IMG/VR virus record: IMGVR_UViG_3300044807_000022
Location: 21,064-85,063 of that record
From: a virus
Reading direction: 5' to 3' (one strand)
DNA length: 64,000 nucleotides
Positions 39,396-60,132 of the stretch are shown here, piece by piece (position 1 is the first letter of the stretch; every line of letters begins with the position of its first letter). The notes under the pieces are model-generated. The model did no database searches. It had not been told where the DNA came from and saw nothing but the letters and a program-made list of their open reading frames with translations. The translations under genes were made by a program, and so were the position numbers.

Positions 39396-39609
39396 CTTGA
39401 ACCTCCGATTTCAGTTGGGACTTCCCACGGCAGCCAATGGCGATGAGCCCGGCCCGCCAGAGCTTGTTCCTCGCCCGGCGCAAGGCGTCGGGGTGGGTCT
39501 GCATGTTGCGCACCAGTTCTGCCGTGTCGAACAGGTGGTCGGGGTCGTCGCGGTGGGCGTCGAGCACCCGCCGCTCCAGTGCGTTCAGGATCAGGTGCCG
39601 CTCGTTCAC
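39358..39609 (-). CDS. Small helical protein, possible winged helix
   Basis: An 83-residue protein with GTG start. HLFDTAELVRNMQTHPDALRRARNKLWRAGLI has winged-helix spacing. Its end overlaps the next gene by 38 bp, more than usual here, so that 3' end or the neighbour's start could be off. Confidence 0.45.
   Translation of the reverse strand: MNERHLILNALERRVLDAHRDDPDHLFDTAELVRNMQTHPDALRRARNKLWRAGLIAIGCRGKSQLKSEVQDDGVPPDGPTGR
39399..39424. repeat. Dispersed palindrome over a start site
   Basis: GAA-N6-ATTTCAGT-N6-TTC, covering the ribosome binding site of the minus-strand gene starting at 39395 and the end of the gene above it. Confidence 0.75.
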
Positions 39610-43958: not shown

Positions 43959-44938
43959 GCCGCGTCCTCTGCGGCAAGCTCGTCCGCACGCTGTACGAGC
44001 GCGTCGATCTGCTGGTCCACGATGTGCGTGGCCTCCGACGCCCTCTTGAGCTTCGTGCCGAGCATGTCCGCGTACTTCGCGATCTGCTCCTCCAGGGCCT
44101 TGCGCTCCTGGATGACGTTGCGGAGGAGGTCCTTCCTGATGTAGCTCGGATTGCGGTCGAGCACGGCCGCGACCTTCGCGACCATTTCCTCGGCCGCGCC
44201 CTGCACGTGCTGCGTGAAGTGCTTCTCGACACGCTCGCGCTCCAGGTCGCCATTCGCGATGGCGATGGACCACAGTTCGGCGTCACCGTCGTAAAGCTCC
44301 TCCAGGACGGTCGTGATCGAGTCGAGCACCTTCTGCTGCTTGTCGCCCTTGGGCACGAAGTACAGGCCGCCCGCCTTGCCGCGCAGGTTCGACGCGCCCA
44401 GCCGGTGCAGTTGGCCGCGCACGGCGTTCCGCACCTTCTGGCCGGGCACGCGCGAGGAGTTCTTCGCGTAGTAGTCCCGGATCGCGTCCTCGATGCCCTC
44501 GCCCGCGAGCGCTGCCGCGTGCTCGGACTCCAGCGCCTCGACCGCGATGGTCTCGTCCGCCTTGTCGAACGTGACGCGCAGCGCCTTGGGGTGGTCGATG
44601 ACCCGATGCTCCAGGTCTCGGATGAGCCGCGTGATCTGGTACGTGCAGTCGCGCGAGGTCTCCGAAAGCTCGTCCACCTTGATTTCGGTGATGCGGCCGT
44701 TCATGCGCCGCGTCTCGACCGAACGACAGGCACGCTGGAACACGTGGACGGCGTTGCGCGCCTGCGGCACCAGGTCGGTGTCCAGGTCGTGCCCCGCCCA
44801 CATGCGCAGGAGCTTCGTGCCTTCGATGGGCCGGTCCGGGATGGTGTACGTGGCGGCCCACCCGAGAATGTGGTCCATGGTGATGTTGCCGCCGGGGGTG
44901 ACGGCCACTGCGCCCTTGGGCAGTCGCTTACGAGCCAT
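43955..44938 (-). CDS. Phage protein, DUF6744-like
   Basis: A 327-residue, largely helical protein. The N-terminal GAVAVTPGGNITMDHIL and the charged helices after it (PGQKVRNAVRGQL; LYFVPKGDKQQKVLDSI) recall a phage protein that I associate with DUF6744 and MoxR neighbours; I am not sure of the name. The C-terminal third is a coiled coil. Start ATG 44938 has its ribosome binding site inside the palindrome 44942-44967. Confidence 0.5.
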   Translation of the reverse strand: MARKRLPKGAVAVTPGGNITMDHILGWAATYTIPDRPIEGTKLLRMWAGHDLDTDLVPQARNAVHVFQRACRSVETRRMNGRITEIKVDELSETSRDCTYQITRLIRDLEHRVIDHPKALRVTFDKADETIAVEALESEHAAALAGEGIEDAIRDYYAKNSSRVPGQKVRNAVRGQLHRLGASNLRGKAGGLYFVPKGDKQQKVLDSITTVLEELYDGDAELWSIAIANGDLERERVEKHFTQHVQGAAEEMVAKVAAVLDRNPSYIRKDLLRNVIQERKALEEQIAKYADMLGTKLKRASEATHIVDQQIDALVQRADELAAEDAA

Positions 44939-44941
44939 TCT

Positions 44942-44967
44942 GAACCTCCGATTGCAGTTGCGGTTTC
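44942..44967. repeat. Dispersed palindrome over a ribosome binding site
   Basis: GAA-N6-ATTGCAGT-N6-TTC upstream of ATG 44938. On the minus strand CGGAGGTTC of the left arm is the Shine-Dalgarno. Nearly the same sequence stands at 46798-46823 before the vWA gene. Confidence 0.8.
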
Positions 44968-45122
44968 GTTGAAGGGTTCGACCCACGCCGGGTCTGGCTT
45001 GCAGAGGTTTCTCTGGGCCAGAGCCCATCCCCCCCTGCCGCGCCCGGCGCGGGCCTTGCGGCGTCACGTGCCGCCGCCGTTCTGCGTACGCCTGCTGCTC
45101 TGGCCGACTGCGTACGCATGTC

Positions 45123-46793
45123 TTAGGTGATCGCGGTGGCGAGTTGGTCGGTGGCCTCGTTCGCGCCCGAGAGCGACAGGTCGCTCACGTGGACCTGCGT
45201 CTCGGCCATCTGTGCGAGGTAGCCGTACGAGCCGCCGATGCCCACGCCGTGGATGCGGACGCCGCGACCGTTCAGGCGATCCTTCAACTCCTGGTCGTCA
45301 GCGCCAAAGTGGTCCTCGCCATCCGTGATGATTACGAGGTCCGCCTTCTTGAACTCGGGCACCTGCTCCATGATCTTCGCGCCGTGCGCGACGGCCGGGC
45401 CAATGTCCGTGCCGCCGCCGAAGTAGTGCGACGTGAAGTCGATGATGTGCTCGGGGTCGAGCGTTTGGCGTCCGGGGAAGAACCACGCGTGCTGTTCGCT
45501 CGCGGAGCCGAACTCGATGCACGCCGCGTCTCGCTTCTCCTTGTGTGCGATGTTCACCAGCGCCAGCGAGACCGCGCGTGCCCACACGTTGCGGTCGCCA
45601 TACATGGACCCGCTGCCGTCCACCAGCACGACGACGGGGCCACGGCCCTCGGGCTCGTTCCCGCGTAGCTCGTACTGAGCGATGGCCTTCTCGTGATACC
45701 GACGCATGAACTCCAGTCGGAAGATCGGGTGCTTGAGCTTCGCCAGTTCGTGTGGGAGCGCGAGGCTGATCGTGTCGCCCAACTCCACGTCCACGACCTC
45801 CTCGAAGCCACCGACGACGCGGTTGGCGCGCTTGAACCGCATGTCACGCTCCAGGCGGCCCATCAGTTCGGCCACCTTGCGCAGCATGTCGTTCTTGCGC
45901 CACATTTCCGCGAGCGCGAACATCTTGTCCGGGGCGATGCGCGAGCCCGCGCCAGCACCCACGCCGGGCATAGCCATCATGGCCTCGGCGTCTTCCTTCG
46001 CCTGAGCCACGGCGTCGTCCACCGCGTCGGCCACGGCCATGCCCATGCCTGCCGCCTGCTGCTGCTGCACCTGCGCGTCGAGGCTCTGCTGGGCCTGCGT
46101 GTGCGCCGCTGCCAGGTCGGCCATTTCCTGCTGCTGTTCGGGCGTCATGGTGTTCTGCTCGAACGCGTCACGCAGCGCCTCCAGCTTGCGCTCCAGGTCC
46201 TCCAGCGAAAGCTCCTGCTCGCGCATCTGCTCGGACCGGCGTGCGTGCTCCGACAGGACGCCGGTCTTCAGCGATTCGCTGAGCGACTGCGTGAGACCCA
46301 TCGTGGCGAACGCCGCCTCGAACTCGTTCATGCGCGTGGTCGGGCGCGTGTCCATGAACTCGTCGCTGTTGATGATTCGCGACATGATGCGGCGGTGCAG
46401 TTCGTGCGAGGGCTTGATCTGGTGGTCGCCCATCGGCTTTGGCTCGTCGTACGTGAAGTACGCGCGGAAGGCGTCGGACGCGAGGTCGGGCCAGAGCGAC
46501 CACGGACCCTCGGGCATGGCGACCTGGTGCTGGCACTTCGCGCACGTGACCTCCGCGCCGTCGATCTGCCAGTCGGGCTCGTCAGTGCCGCAGTTCGGGC
46601 ACTTCGTCGGGGGATCGCCCTGCGGGACGTTCGGGCTGTTCTCGAAGATGGCGTTGAACTTGGGGGCCTTGTCCCTGAAGTCCTCCAGGTACGAATCGTC
46701 CACGCGGTCGTGCGTGACCACGGACGAGGACAGGTCGGTCATTCGCTGCTCTGTCCGGTTGAACAGGTTCTTCACGCGGTCCATCAGGCCCAT
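45123..46793 (-). CDS. vWA-domain protein, ViaA/CobT-like
   Basis: A 556-residue protein. Residues 65-87 carry CPNC and CAKC, a zinc ribbon. Residues 200-270 are a Gln-rich coiled coil. The C-terminal von Willebrand A domain starts VVVLVDGSGSMYGDR (MIDAS DxSxS, about residue 390), with DLVIITDGEDHFG as its last metal-binding strand. The pairing with a MoxR-type ATPase resembles RavA-ViaA and CobS-CobT systems, which remodel or metallate partner proteins. Phage target unknown. Confidence 0.85.
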   Translation of the reverse strand: MGLMDRVKNLFNRTEQRMTDLSSSVVTHDRVDDSYLEDFRDKAPKFNAIFENSPNVPQGDPPTKCPNCGTDEPDWQIDGAEVTCAKCQHQVAMPEGPWSLWPDLASDAFRAYFTYDEPKPMGDHQIKPSHELHRRIMSRIINSDEFMDTRPTTRMNEFEAAFATMGLTQSLSESLKTGVLSEHARRSEQMREQELSLEDLERKLEALRDAFEQNTMTPEQQQEMADLAAAHTQAQQSLDAQVQQQQAAGMGMAVADAVDDAVAQAKEDAEAMMAMPGVGAGAGSRIAPDKMFALAEMWRKNDMLRKVAELMGRLERDMRFKRANRVVGGFEEVVDVELGDTISLALPHELAKLKHPIFRLEFMRRYHEKAIAQYELRGNEPEGRGPVVVLVDGSGSMYGDRNVWARAVSLALVNIAHKEKRDAACIEFGSASEQHAWFFPGRQTLDPEHIIDFTSHYFGGGTDIGPAVAHGAKIMEQVPEFKKADLVIITDGEDHFGADDQELKDRLNGRGVRIHGVGIGGSYGYLAQMAETQVHVSDLSLSGANEATDQLATAIT

Positions 46794-46797
46794 GTCT

Positions 46798-46823
46798 AAA
46801 CCTCCGATTGCAGTTGCGATTTC
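46798..46823. repeat. Dispersed palindrome over a ribosome binding site
   Basis: AAA-N6-ATTGCAGT-N6-TTC, a one-base variant, before the vWA gene start at 46793. Confidence 0.7.
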
Positions 46824-46827
46824 ATAT

Positions 46828-46882
46828 GGCAGCGCCCAGGCGTCGAACCTGGACCATCGGAGCGCCAGTGCTCCGCGCCGCC
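46828..46882 (-). ncRNA. tRNA-like RNA fold in an operon spacer
   Basis: On the minus strand 8-base ends GGCGGCGC and GCGCTGCC pair with one G-U wobble. Inside are a 5-bp hairpin GGAGC/GCTCC with a 6-base loop, a 6-base spacer, and a 5-bp hairpin CCAGG/CCTGG with loop TTCGACG, very like a tRNA T-arm. There is no anticodon arm and no CCA. The G-U wobble is an A-C mismatch on the plus strand, so the minus-strand RNA is the one that folds well. It lies between the MoxR and vWA genes and would be co-transcribed. Confidence 0.45.
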
Positions 46883-46892
46883 ACCCGAGGAC

Positions 46893-48113
46893 TTACGACG
46901 GGTTGATGCCGAACGCTTCCTTCTGCACCCAATCCTTGTCGGACTGGATCGACTTCGCGAGTTCCGCGAGCGTGGACGCGTCTCGGCCGTCCTTGTTCGC
47001 GGCCTCCAGCTTCTCCTCGACCTTCGCGCTGAGCAGGTCGAGCAGGCGCTTCACGCGGATGGCCTGACCGATCTGCTCCTGGTTGTTCGGGTCGATGGTG
47101 CCTGCGGCCGTGAGTTGCTGGAACTCGACCTTGATCGGGTCGTACTCGTCCTGGTACTTCGCAGCCGCGCGCTCGAACTCGGACGCGAAGTCGAGCACGA
47201 TGCGGTAGGCGGTCTGCTCGTCCTCGGGCTCGCGCCAGATGACGTGCTGGAACACCTTTATGTCGTCGGACAGCACTTCGTCGCGACCGGCCATGTACGC
47301 CTTCGCCTGCATGAGCTTCACGCCCGCGCCGAACCGGCGAGGGTTGATGTGAAGGTTCTGCTCCATGCACATGCGACGGAGACGTGCGAGGTCGTCCATC
47401 ACGGAGTCCGGCACGTCGATGGCGGCCGTCTCGCTGATGGCCGCGTTCACGTCGTCCACGGTCATCTGCGTGAACGTCGTCGCGACCGTGTTGCCGAGCC
47501 TGCGCGCGATCTGCCCACGCAGCACGGCCTTGAACCCGTCGTCCGAGCGTACGTCGTGGACCATCTTCGTTACGACGATCCGGTCACGGAACGCGCGCAG
47601 GTCGTCGCGGTCCAGGCCCGGCAGTTCGTTCGACGCGAAGCCGCACGTCCACAGGGGCACGGGGATCGCGCCCCCGTTGTTGTCGAACTGGCGCTCGTTG
47701 ATGATCTTGAGCATCGAGTTCAGCACGTTCGCGGGGGCCTTGAAGACCTCATCCACGAACGCCAGGTGCGCGTCCGGGAGCTTGCCCGAGACGTTGCGCT
47801 CGAACTTGTCCTGCTCCAGCGCCTTCAGCGACACCGGACCCAGAAGCTCCTCGGCGGGCGTCTGCTTGAACACCAGCCGCTCGAAGTAGCGCGCGCCGTC
47901 CACGTGGCGCGCGAGGAGCCGCAGGGTCATCGACTTCGCCACGCCGGGGATGCCGATGAACAGCGGGTGCTCCATCGCGAGCAGGCAGAGGTAGATCAGT
48001 TCGACCTCCTCGTTGCGCTCGACCAGTTCGGCCTTGTCCTCGCGCATGCACTGCTGCAACTGCTGCGCGAGGGACGGCGTGGCCGCCTTCGCCTTCGCTC
48101 CTGTTGTTGCCAT
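46893..48113 (-). CDS. MoxR/RavA-type AAA+ ATPase
   Basis: A 406-residue AAA+ protein of the MoxR class. Walker A is GIPGVAKS (54-61), Walker B AFVDEVF (118-124), and KAPANVLNSMLKIINERQF plus FASNELP are typical of RavA/MoxR ATPases. The second half is helical, with MoxR lid-like helices then a charged tail. Its vWA partner is encoded 99 bp downstream. Known RavA-ViaA pairs act as chaperones on membrane or respiratory proteins; here the substrate is unknown. Confidence 0.85.
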   Translation of the reverse strand: MATTGAKAKAATPSLAQQLQQCMREDKAELVERNEEVELIYLCLLAMEHPLFIGIPGVAKSMTLRLLARHVDGARYFERLVFKQTPAEELLGPVSLKALEQDKFERNVSGKLPDAHLAFVDEVFKAPANVLNSMLKIINERQFDNNGGAIPVPLWTCGFASNELPGLDRDDLRAFRDRIVVTKMVHDVRSDDGFKAVLRGQIARRLGNTVATTFTQMTVDDVNAAISETAAIDVPDSVMDDLARLRRMCMEQNLHINPRRFGAGVKLMQAKAYMAGRDEVLSDDIKVFQHVIWREPEDEQTAYRIVLDFASEFERAAAKYQDEYDPIKVEFQQLTAAGTIDPNNQEQIGQAIRVKRLLDLLSAKVEEKLEAANKDGRDASTLAELAKSIQSDKDWVQKEAFGINPS

Positions 48114-48143
48114 GCTCCTGTGACCTCCTCGGTGGTCCTGGTT

Positions 48144-48179
48144 CTACTGCCTGAAACCGGCTATGCCGGAAAGTGTGAC
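48144..48179 (-). promoter_or_regulatory. 36-bp element, copy 1
   Basis: On the minus strand it reads GTCACACTTTCC, four bases, TAGCCGGTTT, then CAGGCAGTAG. It is 30 bp upstream of the MoxR start at 48113. Same length in all four copies. Probable promoter or operator of the MoxR-vWA operon. A palindrome copy overlaps it (48169-48194). Confidence 0.55.
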
Positions 48180-48184
48180 GGTGG

Positions 48185-48259
48185 CTAGAGCTTCGTGATC
48201 GCGGCCACCACGTCGATCAGGATGGCCGCGCTGAGCACGACCTTCGTTCGTACGCTCAT
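48185..48259 (-). CDS. 24-residue hydrophobic peptide
   Basis: MSVRTKVVLSAAILIDVVAAITKL is one short membrane helix. The ATG overlaps the previous stop (GCATGA), which argues for real translation. Function unknown. Confidence 0.45.
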   Translation of the reverse strand: MSVRTKVVLSAAILIDVVAAITKL

Positions 48260-49026
48260 GCGTGCCTCCGGTTCTGGGTCTCCTCGATCACGACCTCATG
48301 CGGGGCGAAGACGAGTCGATGCCCGGCCTCGGATGCACGCTCGACCAGTTCGAGCCCCACGCGCGTACGCTTGACCGCGCGCTGGCTCACGGTGAGCACG
48401 TTCGCCTGCACTCCCTCGTCGGGGTGCGGGTAGCAGACGGCCACGGGGTGCTGGCCGCTGAAGATGACGCCGTTCTCCACGCGCACGTGCCCGGCCGTGA
48501 TGTGGTTCCAGCCCCAGCGTCCGCGAGGGTTGCCGACGATCACGTCGAGTGCCTGTTCGTGCCGTTCGACGCGCCGCTCACGCGCGCGCTCGTTCGCCTC
48601 CTCGGCCCTGCGTGCCTCGAACTCGCCGTAGGTCTCGTCGTGCTCGATCCACTCGCCGTCGCTGTTGAGGGTCGCGCGCGGGTTCGCACGTACGCACTCG
48701 CCGTAGCCGGTGCGCCAGTCGTCGCCCAGCTTCACGAAGATCGCGGACTCGCCTGAGCCGCGCGCCACGCGGGCGAAGGCGCGCACGCCGGATGCCATGC
48801 TCATGCGGTCGGCCGTGCTGATCGTCTCCCAGCCACCCGTGTAGAAGGTGAGCATGCCGTCCGGGTAGAAGGTGACCACGTTCGTAGCGTGGAAGCGGAT
48901 CGCGTACGCGGTGTCGCTCGGGTCGTGCCCGTCCAGGCGCATGATCCGCGTGTTGCGCGCGATGGGCTTGCCCGCGTCGGGGCGCTTCGCCTTCGCGTGA
49001 AGCCGTGCTGCCTCCTCGTAGTCCAT
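48256..49026 (-). CDS. Conserved-looking protein, unknown
   Basis: A 256-residue protein. The first half has AIRFHATNVVTFYPDGMLTFYTGGWETISTADRM, a segment that I have seen in phage proteins but cannot name. The last third is helical and basic (FEARRAEEANERARERR). Start ATG 49026. It may be part of the early minus-strand operon. Confidence 0.5.
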   Translation of the reverse strand: MDYEEAARLHAKAKRPDAGKPIARNTRIMRLDGHDPSDTAYAIRFHATNVVTFYPDGMLTFYTGGWETISTADRMSMASGVRAFARVARGSGESAIFVKLGDDWRTGYGECVRANPRATLNSDGEWIEHDETYGEFEARRAEEANERARERRVERHEQALDVIVGNPRGRWGWNHITAGHVRVENGVIFSGQHPVAVCYPHPDEGVQANVLTVSQRAVKRTRVGLELVERASEAGHRLVFAPHEVVIEETQNRRHA

Positions 49027-49855: not shown

Positions 49856-49891
49856 CTACCTGCCCAAACCGGCTAGGCAGGAAAGTGTGAC
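49856..49891 (-). promoter_or_regulatory. 36-bp element, copy 2
   Basis: Minus strand: GTCACACTTTCC, TGCC, TAGCCGGTTT, GGGCAGGTAG. The arms CCTGCC and GGCAGG are complementary. A palindrome-like copy follows at 49881-49906. Upstream of the gene starting at 49834. Confidence 0.6.
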
Positions 49892-50058
49892 GTTCGTCGG
49901 AAGATTTCGCCCGCGCTCGTGGGCTCCAGGGCGGGAGGCACGAGGAGCCGTTGAGCGCGGGCACGTGATTCTGAGGCTCACGCGAGGGCCTGTAGTTCGC
50001 ATCACCTTGACGGTAGGTCCCACCGCTTGCGCGGGTCAGCCGGATCAGGTGAGAGGCG

Positions 50059-51065: not shown

Positions 51066-51101
51066 CTACCTGCCGAAACCGGTTACTATGGAAAGTGTGA
51101 C
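51066..51101 (-). promoter_or_regulatory. 36-bp element, copy 3, in a divergent intergenic region
   Basis: Minus strand: GTCACACTTTCC, ATAG, TAACCGGTTT, CGGCAGGTAG. It overlaps a palindrome copy (51091-51116) and lies between the divergent genes starting at 51042 and 51142, so it is a likely shared regulatory site. Confidence 0.6.
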
Positions 51102-51141
51102 GGCCGTCAGAGGATCGGCCGCAGAACCGGAAGGGGTCTCA

Positions 51142-59008: not shown

Positions 59009-59541
59009 GGGACGAGGACGACACGCCGACGTGGAAGGCTGGGGCGACCTGGAAGGAGGGAAGCCCTGACGACAGTTCCGCGATCCACGGTCGAGCGATC
59101 CACGCCTACATCGAGGACCTGGCACGCAGGGACGCGCTGACTCGCGAGGGTCAGACCTACAAGTGGCTCCGCGACCACTGGCCGTGGTACCTGCGCTGGG
59201 CGATGGGCTATCCGCGCGCCATCGCAGTGCTCGACCGGCTCGGCCTCGTCACACTGCCGGTGTTCGTGGACCAGCGGGACGCGCCCGGCGTCATCAGCAT
59301 GGAGCGTGCGCTGGAGGTAGTCGGAGTTCCACAACCGTTGAAGCCTTCAACTAACGCGTGGACGATTCAGGTCTACGGGTACGACGTGAAGCTGCACGCT
59401 CGCGCCTGGGCGCTCGGGCCGGACGGCCAGCGGATCGACGTGACCCTGACGCCGGGCATGTTCGACGGTCACGCCTGCCTGATCCTTGACCCCGGCCCCG
59501 TGGCCGAGGCGATCAACGAGTGGGAGCTACGCGGGCGCTAG
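59005..59541 (+). CDS. Conserved-looking protein, unknown
   Basis: A 178-residue protein with aromatic-rich helices (TYKWLRDHWPWYLRWAMGYPRAIAVLDRLGL) and a beta C-terminal half. ATGA coupling. Contains a palindrome-like copy (59060-59085) and TTGAAGCCTTCAAC at 59338. Function unknown. Confidence 0.45.
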   Translation: MRDEDDTPTWKAGATWKEGSPDDSSAIHGRAIHAYIEDLARRDALTREGQTYKWLRDHWPWYLRWAMGYPRAIAVLDRLGLVTLPVFVDQRDAPGVISMERALEVVGVPQPLKPSTNAWTIQVYGYDVKLHARAWALGPDGQRIDVTLTPGMFDGHACLILDPGPVAEAINEWELRGR

Positions 59542-59561
59542 GTTCCGTCCGGCGGCCTGCC

Positions 59562-59567
59562 TACGGT
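59562..59567 (+). promoter_or_regulatory. Leaderless-type -10 TACGGT
   Basis: TACGGT ends 7 bases before ATG 59575 of the lysin gene, with no ribosome binding site. Consistent with a leaderless transcript. Confidence 0.45.
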
Positions 59568-59574
59568 GGCCGCC

Positions 59575-60132
59575 ATGAACTTCACACGCGAGCAACTTGA
59601 CGCCGAGCTTCACCGCTTCGTTCACCTGGCCTCCGTAGCCGACCTCCGCGACCTTGCCGAGCGCAAGGGGCAGGGCGTGATCGGCGCGCCGCTCATCCTG
59701 GCGATGGGCTCGCGCGAGACCGGCCTGTCGAACATCGCGGGCGACCACGGCCACGGGCGCGGCACCTGGCAGCAGGACGACCGCTTCCAGACCGACTGGC
59801 TGCGCCACCAGCGCGGCTGCCGCTCGGGCACGAACACGCCGCTGCGCGGCCACACGGCGCTGGAGCCCGGCTTCGTGCCGACCGTCGCCGCCGGGGCCGA
59901 CCGCCTGGTCACGATCTTCGTCGGCAACTACGTCTTCGTGCGCAAGCAGGGCTTCAGCGCGAAGACGGCCCGCAAGATCGTCGTGTCCTCGTACAACGCC
60001 GGTCTGACCGGCGCGCTGAACGGCCAACGGCAGTTCGGGGATTCCGACCACAACACGGCGCACGGCGACTACGCCAAGGACGTGCTCGCTCGGGCCGTCG
60101 TCTTCTCCTCGCTGCTCAAGAAGATCAAGTAG
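59575..60132 (+). CDS. Lytic transglycosylase-like endolysin
   Basis: A 185-residue protein. ILAMGSRETGLSNIAGDHGHGRGTWQ carries the catalytic Glu and following Gly/Gln motif of goose-type or Slt lysozyme folds, and IVVSSYNAGLTGALNGQ matches the conserved SYNAG near the active site. HGDYAKDVLAR closes the domain. No signal peptide or binding domain is seen, so it may need a holin or act from the virion. ATG 59575 is preferred for its leaderless TACGGT. Confidence 0.7.
   Translation: MNFTREQLDAELHRFVHLASVADLRDLAERKGQGVIGAPLILAMGSRETGLSNIAGDHGHGRGTWQQDDRFQTDWLRHQRGCRSGTNTPLRGHTALEPGFVPTVAAGADRLVTIFVGNYVFVRKQGFSAKTARKIVVSSYNAGLTGALNGQRQFGDSDHNTAHGDYAKDVLARAVVFSSLLKKIK

Follow-up and report, generated by a model that had tools for sequence, protein, structure and literature searches.

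The features of tRNA that RNase P and RNase Z recognize are its elbow and its acceptor helix, and a hairpin made of acceptor and T stem is enough for RNase P. In tRNA-Sec (RF01852), the acceptor and the T arm are 8 bp and 5 bp long. PMC11693755 describes mascRNA as an RNA in which the two guanosines of a reduced D arm form an elbow with the T arm, in which the tRNA linker residues are missing, and which is processed by RNase P and RNase Z. Plant mitochondrial t-elements are cut by the same two enzymes, which sets transcript ends, according to PMC11658184. The M3 RNA of phage and the phage-derived antisense C4 RNA are substrates of bacterial RNase P, as stated in PMC11143913, and RNase P acts in bacterial polycistronic mRNAs, as the titles of two papers cited in PMC4919922 indicate (Alifano 1994; Li & Altman 2003).

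Here we analyze a 55-nt element of a viral genome that can be placed beside each of these systems. Like mascRNA and menRNA (RF01684; human MALAT1 and MEN-beta), it has an acceptor stem, a T arm, and a reduced D arm with two guanosines, and the tRNA linker residues are absent. Unlike the element, mascRNA retains an arm equivalent to the anticodon arm and derives from a human long noncoding RNA, and RNase P and RNase Z have been described as processing it. With plant t-elements it shares a tRNA-like sequence beside genes, and one mark of a t-element-type processing signal, a tRNA-like structure bordering a protein gene in sense orientation, is found in it; t-elements differ in being mitochondrial, homologous to tRNA genes, and typically tRNA-like in predicted structure, with processing shown. 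M3 and C4 are phage-encoded non-tRNA substrates of bacterial RNase P, as the element may be, and its likeness to the sites in bacterial polycistronic mRNAs would be the action of RNase P in operon transcripts. It resembles tRNA-Sec in its 8-bp acceptor, 5-bp T arm, and small GG-containing D loop, but has neither an anticodon arm nor a long variable arm. In the accessible parts of the open-access literature on RNase P, mascRNA, t-elements, and MoxR, we found no phage element described as lacking the anticodon arm.

Results

Genomic context

The window, that is, the whole stretch of 64,000 nucleotides analyzed, is part of a viral contig of 85,063 bases with a GC content of 68%. A tyrosine integrase is encoded in the contig, as is a DnaB-type helicase (Pfam). 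A capsid gene is likely present, named by its place and its relatives without a Pfam match, and putative terminase- and portal-like genes were named from sequence without a domain scan. The genes for a MoxR-type AAA ATPase and a von Willebrand factor A (vWA)-domain protein share the minus strand and are separated by a spacer of 99 nt (Table 1). The sequence-only reading had placed the element in this spacer at the coordinates given in the table, correctly, and its strand is the minus strand.

Table 1. Features in and around the moxR–vWA spacer
Feature	Position	Strand	Basis or remark
MoxR-type AAA ATPase gene, upstream of element	46893..48113	-	Pfam bpMoxR 4.4e-40
tRNA-like element, 55 nt, without anticodon arm	46828..46882	-	R2 26.7 bits, E 1.6e-4; predicted fold
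Acceptor-like closing stem, 5' strand GGCGGCGC	46875..46882	-	read directly; pairs with 46828-46835
D-arm-like hairpin GGAGC-ACTGGC-GCTCC, GG in loop (RNA loop ACUGGC)	46859..46874	-	pair probabilities 1.0
Junction GATGGT, in place of nt 26 and variable loop	46853..46858	-	alignment to tRNA positions in R2
T arm CCAGG-TTCGACG-CCTGG (RNA loop UUCGACG)	46836..46852	-	read directly
Acceptor-like stem, 3' strand GCGCTGCC; next base A, without encoded CCA	46828..46835	-	read directly
Repeated leader with Shine-Dalgarno GGAGG, 5' of vWA	46794..46823	-	copies at 44939-44967, 39400-39434
vWA-domain gene, downstream of element	45123..46793	-	Pfam VWA_2 2.5e-8
Long stem, -52.7 kcal/mol, in next spacer (vWA / following gene; spacer 44939-45122), then leader copy	44974..45060	-	z -3.74; leader 44939-44967

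By the count of a purpose-made crude gene caller, the minus-strand row comprises 31 genes; 18 of the 30 adjacent pairs overlap, 3 are separated by less than 30 nt, and in 9 the spacer is 30 nt or longer, so the moxR–vWA spacer is not unique in the row. A terminator or an internal promoter can be ruled out as the identity of the element, with no promoter-like or terminator-like site found in 44800–48400 when an intrinsic terminator was defined as a GC stem followed by a T run. Elsewhere in the row, a 50-base repeat with copies 70-100% alike (48144-48193, 49856-49905, and 51066-51115) sits, on the gene map, directly upstream of three minus-strand genes, moxR and two others, and is a candidate phage promoter or operator.

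Predicted fold

Read along the minus strand, the parts follow one another as closing stem, D-like hairpin, GATGGT, T arm, closing stem, A, TATG, the leader with GGAGG, and the vWA start; they stand in the right order for a tRNA, in sense orientation, between two genes. The closing stem has 8 pairs including one G·U, and none of the 18 drawn pairs is nonstandard. The drawn structure has an energy of -30.6 kcal/mol versus a minimum of -32.8. Pair probabilities are 0.98–1.0 for 16 of the 18 drawn pairs and 0.32–0.36 for the two inner pairs of the closing stem, which compete with a longer T stem. The sequence-only reading claimed a closing stem, a D-like hairpin, and a T arm with loop UUCGACG, and these are seen both in the sequence and in the predicted fold, whereas an anticodon arm is absent from both.

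The T arm has the TTCRA loop and the 5-bp stem adjoining the acceptor that characterize a tRNA T arm. Departures from tRNA geometry are also evident. The closing stem can be extended outwards by two pairs, U-A at 0.83 and G·U at 0.75, to 10 bp, so it does not end at tRNA length, and when it is read as 8 bp, the tRNA linker (positions 8–9) is missing. The base after the 3' acceptor strand bears out the claim that no CCA is encoded, which says little because the tRNA-Lys of one relative (G007) also lacks an encoded CCA.

Fold stability on its own is ordinary, or modestly unusual at most. The z score of the fold energy is -3.2 for the 55 nt (-2.6 in a separate script) and -1.9 for the 99-nt spacer; 47 of 11,628 stretches of 55 nt are at least as stable as the element, and among 36 spacers of 30–700 nt, 11, counting the element's own, contain a segment of equal or greater stability on one strand. 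The element is nevertheless more tRNA-like than chance gives. The combination of a TTCGA T arm, a 7-bp acceptor, and an inner 5-bp hairpin was seen once, against a mean of 0.04 in 100 shuffles. In a second test that imposed tRNA-like spacing, 1000 shuffles gave 29 cases of T arm plus acceptor, 6 with the hairpin added, and 3 with GG in its loop as well. The pattern GGTTCGANNCC has 4 matches in the window, that of the T arm included, versus 0.92 expected.

Standard tools and covariance models

ARAGORN calls no tRNA gene in the window or in the rest of the contig, and Rfam at gathering thresholds returns nothing in the window. A permissive Rfam scan of 301 bases finds no tRNA-like family, neither mascRNA nor tRNA. 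When the scan is confined to 63 bases, mascRNA-menRNA comes first (16.3 bits, E 0.19, against an RF01684 gathering score of 42.5), followed by tRNA-Sec (13.4 bits, E 1.3, far under its 47-bit cut-off), both sub-threshold, and the element accordingly does not belong to the mascRNA/menRNA family. With the tRNA model RF00005, it is the sole match in the genome at 11.6 bits (E 1.19), below the gathering score of 29 bits, and, with no readable anticodon arm, it is not a full tRNA.

R2, an armless-tRNA covariance model, was built from 34 phage tRNAs after deletion of their anticodon arms, its rows being hand-picked from 98 tRNAs with those found through the T-arm pattern of the element left out. In 85,263 bases (the 85-kb contig), the element is the sole R2 match, at 26.7 bits and E 1.6e-4, values to be read with the fact that R2 was designed after the element had been seen and that its calibration is rough. 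With filters off, the runner-up in the surrounding 8 kb scores 9.1 bits. An independent tRNA-Thr (L112:4186-4257) scores 31.0 bits, while the 26.7 bits of the G007 tRNA-Lys are not independent because its armless form is an R2 training sequence. When R2 was used in a two-stage genome search, it gave 0 matches in the element's own genome, the first pass missing the element, so zero counts elsewhere from the same search are weak.

A tRNA model without the D arm also fits the element (21.0 bits, E 2.3e-4), about as significantly as R2. The signal therefore comes largely from the acceptor and T arm, and the identity of the missing arm is not firm; reading the hairpin as a D arm is better than the D-less reading in bits only. 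Taken together, the element appears to be tRNA-like and without an anticodon arm, matching the armless-tRNA model significantly and the D-less model too. The central claim of the sequence-only reading, a tRNA-like RNA lacking the anticodon arm, gains support from R2 and the shuffles.

R1, the element's own model, was built from one sequence given twice. It reaches only 14.5–16.1 bits in the other 23 records, which is chance-like and rules out a conserved RNA family. Over 16 sources, its best other matches were a tRNA of another virus (25.1 bits) and positions 746–802 of the plus strand of the window (24.0 bits, E 0.023), within a gene and without a T loop, so the bare two-hairpin shape recurs in the same DNA.

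A DNA search within its own genome re-finds the leader only, and a repeat family is thereby rejected. Both further copies of the leader (Table 1) precede other mapped genes and have no R2 match there. The long stem followed by a leader copy in the next spacer means that structured RNA plus leader recurs in the operon; as a second tRNA-like element this spacer is ruled out, with neither an R2 match nor one to R3, the D-less model.

Relatives and distribution

Portal and capsid alignments gave 34 distinct related contigs, of which 23 were used and 11 of at most 10.6 kb were left out; searches by MoxR or vWA alone found no relatives. A vWA gene was found in 8 of the 23, many of the rest being fragments, and the MoxR and vWA proteins of these eight are 30–45% identical to those of the window. 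Three of them (G002, G006, and G009) have moxR and vWA 1–9 nt apart, and three others (G001, G003, and G005) have an extra open reading frame between the two genes. The remaining two (G004 and G008) have an apparently noncoding spacer with plain strong hairpins, the vWA start of G008 being uncertain because the vWA frame is open upstream. The sequence-only reading had staked itself on stems conserved in relatives, and this has so far not been borne out, the element being absent at the junction in all eight relatives read; they are too distant for this absence to disprove function. At 30–45% identity, they supply no homologue in which covariation of the stems could be followed.

The moxR–vWA pair itself is widespread in viruses. 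In all 26 loci found by the vWA alignment (L097-L122, some near-identical; GC 36% to 69%), tblastn places moxR upstream of vWA, in the same orientation and no more than 3 kb away. R2 has no match at the moxR–vWA junction of any of these loci, and one true tRNA elsewhere in them; for L103 and the more distant loci, the junctions were checked by R2 alone. As far as seen, the element is lineage-specific, with one copy in one genome. A search for nucleotide relatives in phages and plasmids gave short pieces only (E 0.3–10). In the genome contigs collection, the exact 22-nt 3' end of the element has 0 matches, a search that does not address variants of the sequence, and a portal search for prophages that might reveal the host gave no relative.

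Kinship with tRNA was also followed through the T arm. The 23-base pattern GGTCCAGGTTCGANNCCTGGNCG occurs in 10 viral stretches, some near-identical. Nine lie inside ARAGORN tRNAs, and the tenth (L081) lies at a contig end, in a tRNA body nearly the same as the tRNA-Ile of L080. These matches fit a tRNA ancestry of the T arm and are not strong evidence alone, considering how large the collection is and that a TTCGA loop is part of the pattern. A T-arm pattern allowing 3 mismatches matched 22 of the 23 records, as did its backward control, and is hence uninformative.

tRNA genes over the cut-off occur in 2 of 16 relatives' records, a tRNA-Lys (G007) and a 104-nt tRNA (G005). The latter (L069:1501-1604; G005:C1:61517-61620) scores 45.7 bits with RF00005 and is missed by ARAGORN at default settings. 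In 281,712 bases of relatives' loci, which overlap in part, include near-identical contigs, and contain six (L085–L090) brought in by R2 itself, R2 exceeds 16 bits at the G007 tRNA-Lys, part of the G005 tRNA, a contig with a tmRNA 3' end, and one place in G004, which at 16.7 bits is the best match that is neither tRNA nor tmRNA 3' end.

Two of these places are of interest in their own right. The G004 place (L087:1480-1560; G004:C1 about 59535-59615) has a T arm, a near-complete acceptor, and an arm with a 7-nt loop (CTCAACA), apparently without a D arm; the D-less model gives it 17.4 bits (E 0.0044), and RF00005 does not match it. The G001 contig begins inside a tmRNA 3' end (L123:1-41; G001:C1:1-41), cut at its 5' side and scoring 39.4 bits with RF00023 (E 1.3e-13; cut-off 47 bits), which suggests an attachment site in ssrA. 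No 14-base exact direct repeat of the first 600 bases of this contig was found within its last 2366.

Discussion

The reading that we favor, tentatively, is that the element is a tRNA-derived or tRNA-mimicking intercistronic RNA, probably a signal for RNase P/RNase Z processing or for mRNA protection. Strand, position, tRNA-likeness above chance, and predicted structure support it, as do the lack of any promoter-like or terminator-like site in 44800–48400 and the precedents of mascRNA, M3, and C4; we infer that co-transcription, elbow contacts, cleavage, and an effect on expression would follow. In that case, moxR and vWA would be carried on one phage transcript with the element between them. 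The acceptor stem, the T arm, and the GG-bearing D-like hairpin could together build an elbow like that of tRNA upon a helix of 12–13 bp, which RNase P and RNase Z would recognize, and the missing anticodon arm would keep the element out of translation. It is conceivable that host RNase P cuts near 46882/46883 and RNase Z near 46827, so that the moxR message would gain a new 3' end and the vWA message would retain its own leader and Shine-Dalgarno sequence. Weighing against this reading are the single copy in one genome, the comparable fit of the D-less model, the missing linker and the possible 10-bp stem, the low RF00005 score, the R1 match inside a gene, and the equally stable folds in many other spacers.

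The most ordinary readings that survive are an intercistronic stem-loop and a fresh pseudo-tRNA. The first, which we regard as rather doubtful, would be an ordinary stem-loop, there to shield the mRNA or to uncouple translation, and tRNA-like by chance in GC-rich DNA. Such a role would sit well with the plain hairpins in both relatives with an apparently noncoding spacer, with the long stem before the same leader repeat in the next spacer of the operon, with the equally stable stretches in other spacers, and with the two-hairpin shape without T loop inside a gene. It has more difficulty with the joint presence of T-loop motif, acceptor, GG loop, and spacing, which is rare by chance.

That rarity is also what a pseudo-tRNA would explain, namely, a tRNA gene captured by the phage that lost its anticodon arm in one recent deletion and is now functionless. 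We consider this unlikely. tRNA genes do occur in two of the relatives' records, the element is lineage-specific, and the junction accepts inserts, as the extra reading frame in three of eight relatives illustrates. The remaining stems are, however, all intact, although a very recent deletion would look alike; a full-length parent tRNA was not found in the contig by ARAGORN or RF00005; and the exact 22-nt 3' end is unmatched in the genome contigs collection, which is silent on variants.

A stable small RNA acting in trans, as a decoy for RNase P or tRNA-modifying enzymes, could make use of the compact predicted fold with its consensus T loop, but the element is a single copy inside a gene row with no sign seen of release or abundance, and we consider this very unlikely. 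An attachment site derived from the 3' end of a host tRNA can in effect be ruled out despite the tyrosine integrase and the relative's contig with a tmRNA 3' end at its start, as the integrase gene lies 10.7 kb away, the 22-nt search gave no exact match, and an attP from a tRNA 3' end would not be expected to include a D-like arm along with the complementary 5' acceptor strand. The interpretation offered by the sequence-only reading thus stands in its tRNA-likeness, while sequence does not separate the decayed tRNA, the decoy, and the processing signal that it named.

Returning to the tRNA-like intercistronic signal, it could be speculated in a more specific form, which we rate as improbable, that host RNase P and RNase Z excise a minimal phage tRNA mimic as message punctuation and thereby uncouple MoxR from its vWA partner. 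Such a mimic would be a bacterial equivalent of mascRNA and of the tRNA punctuation seen in mitochondria. It is possible for an armless tRNA relic to go unnoticed by ARAGORN and by the tRNA model of Rfam and still be picked up by a model without the anticodon arm, and a scan with such a model could be applied across phage genomes. If the element is cleaved, a tRNA elbow on an acceptor helix would suffice for a phage to borrow the host's tRNA-processing enzymes as message scissors.
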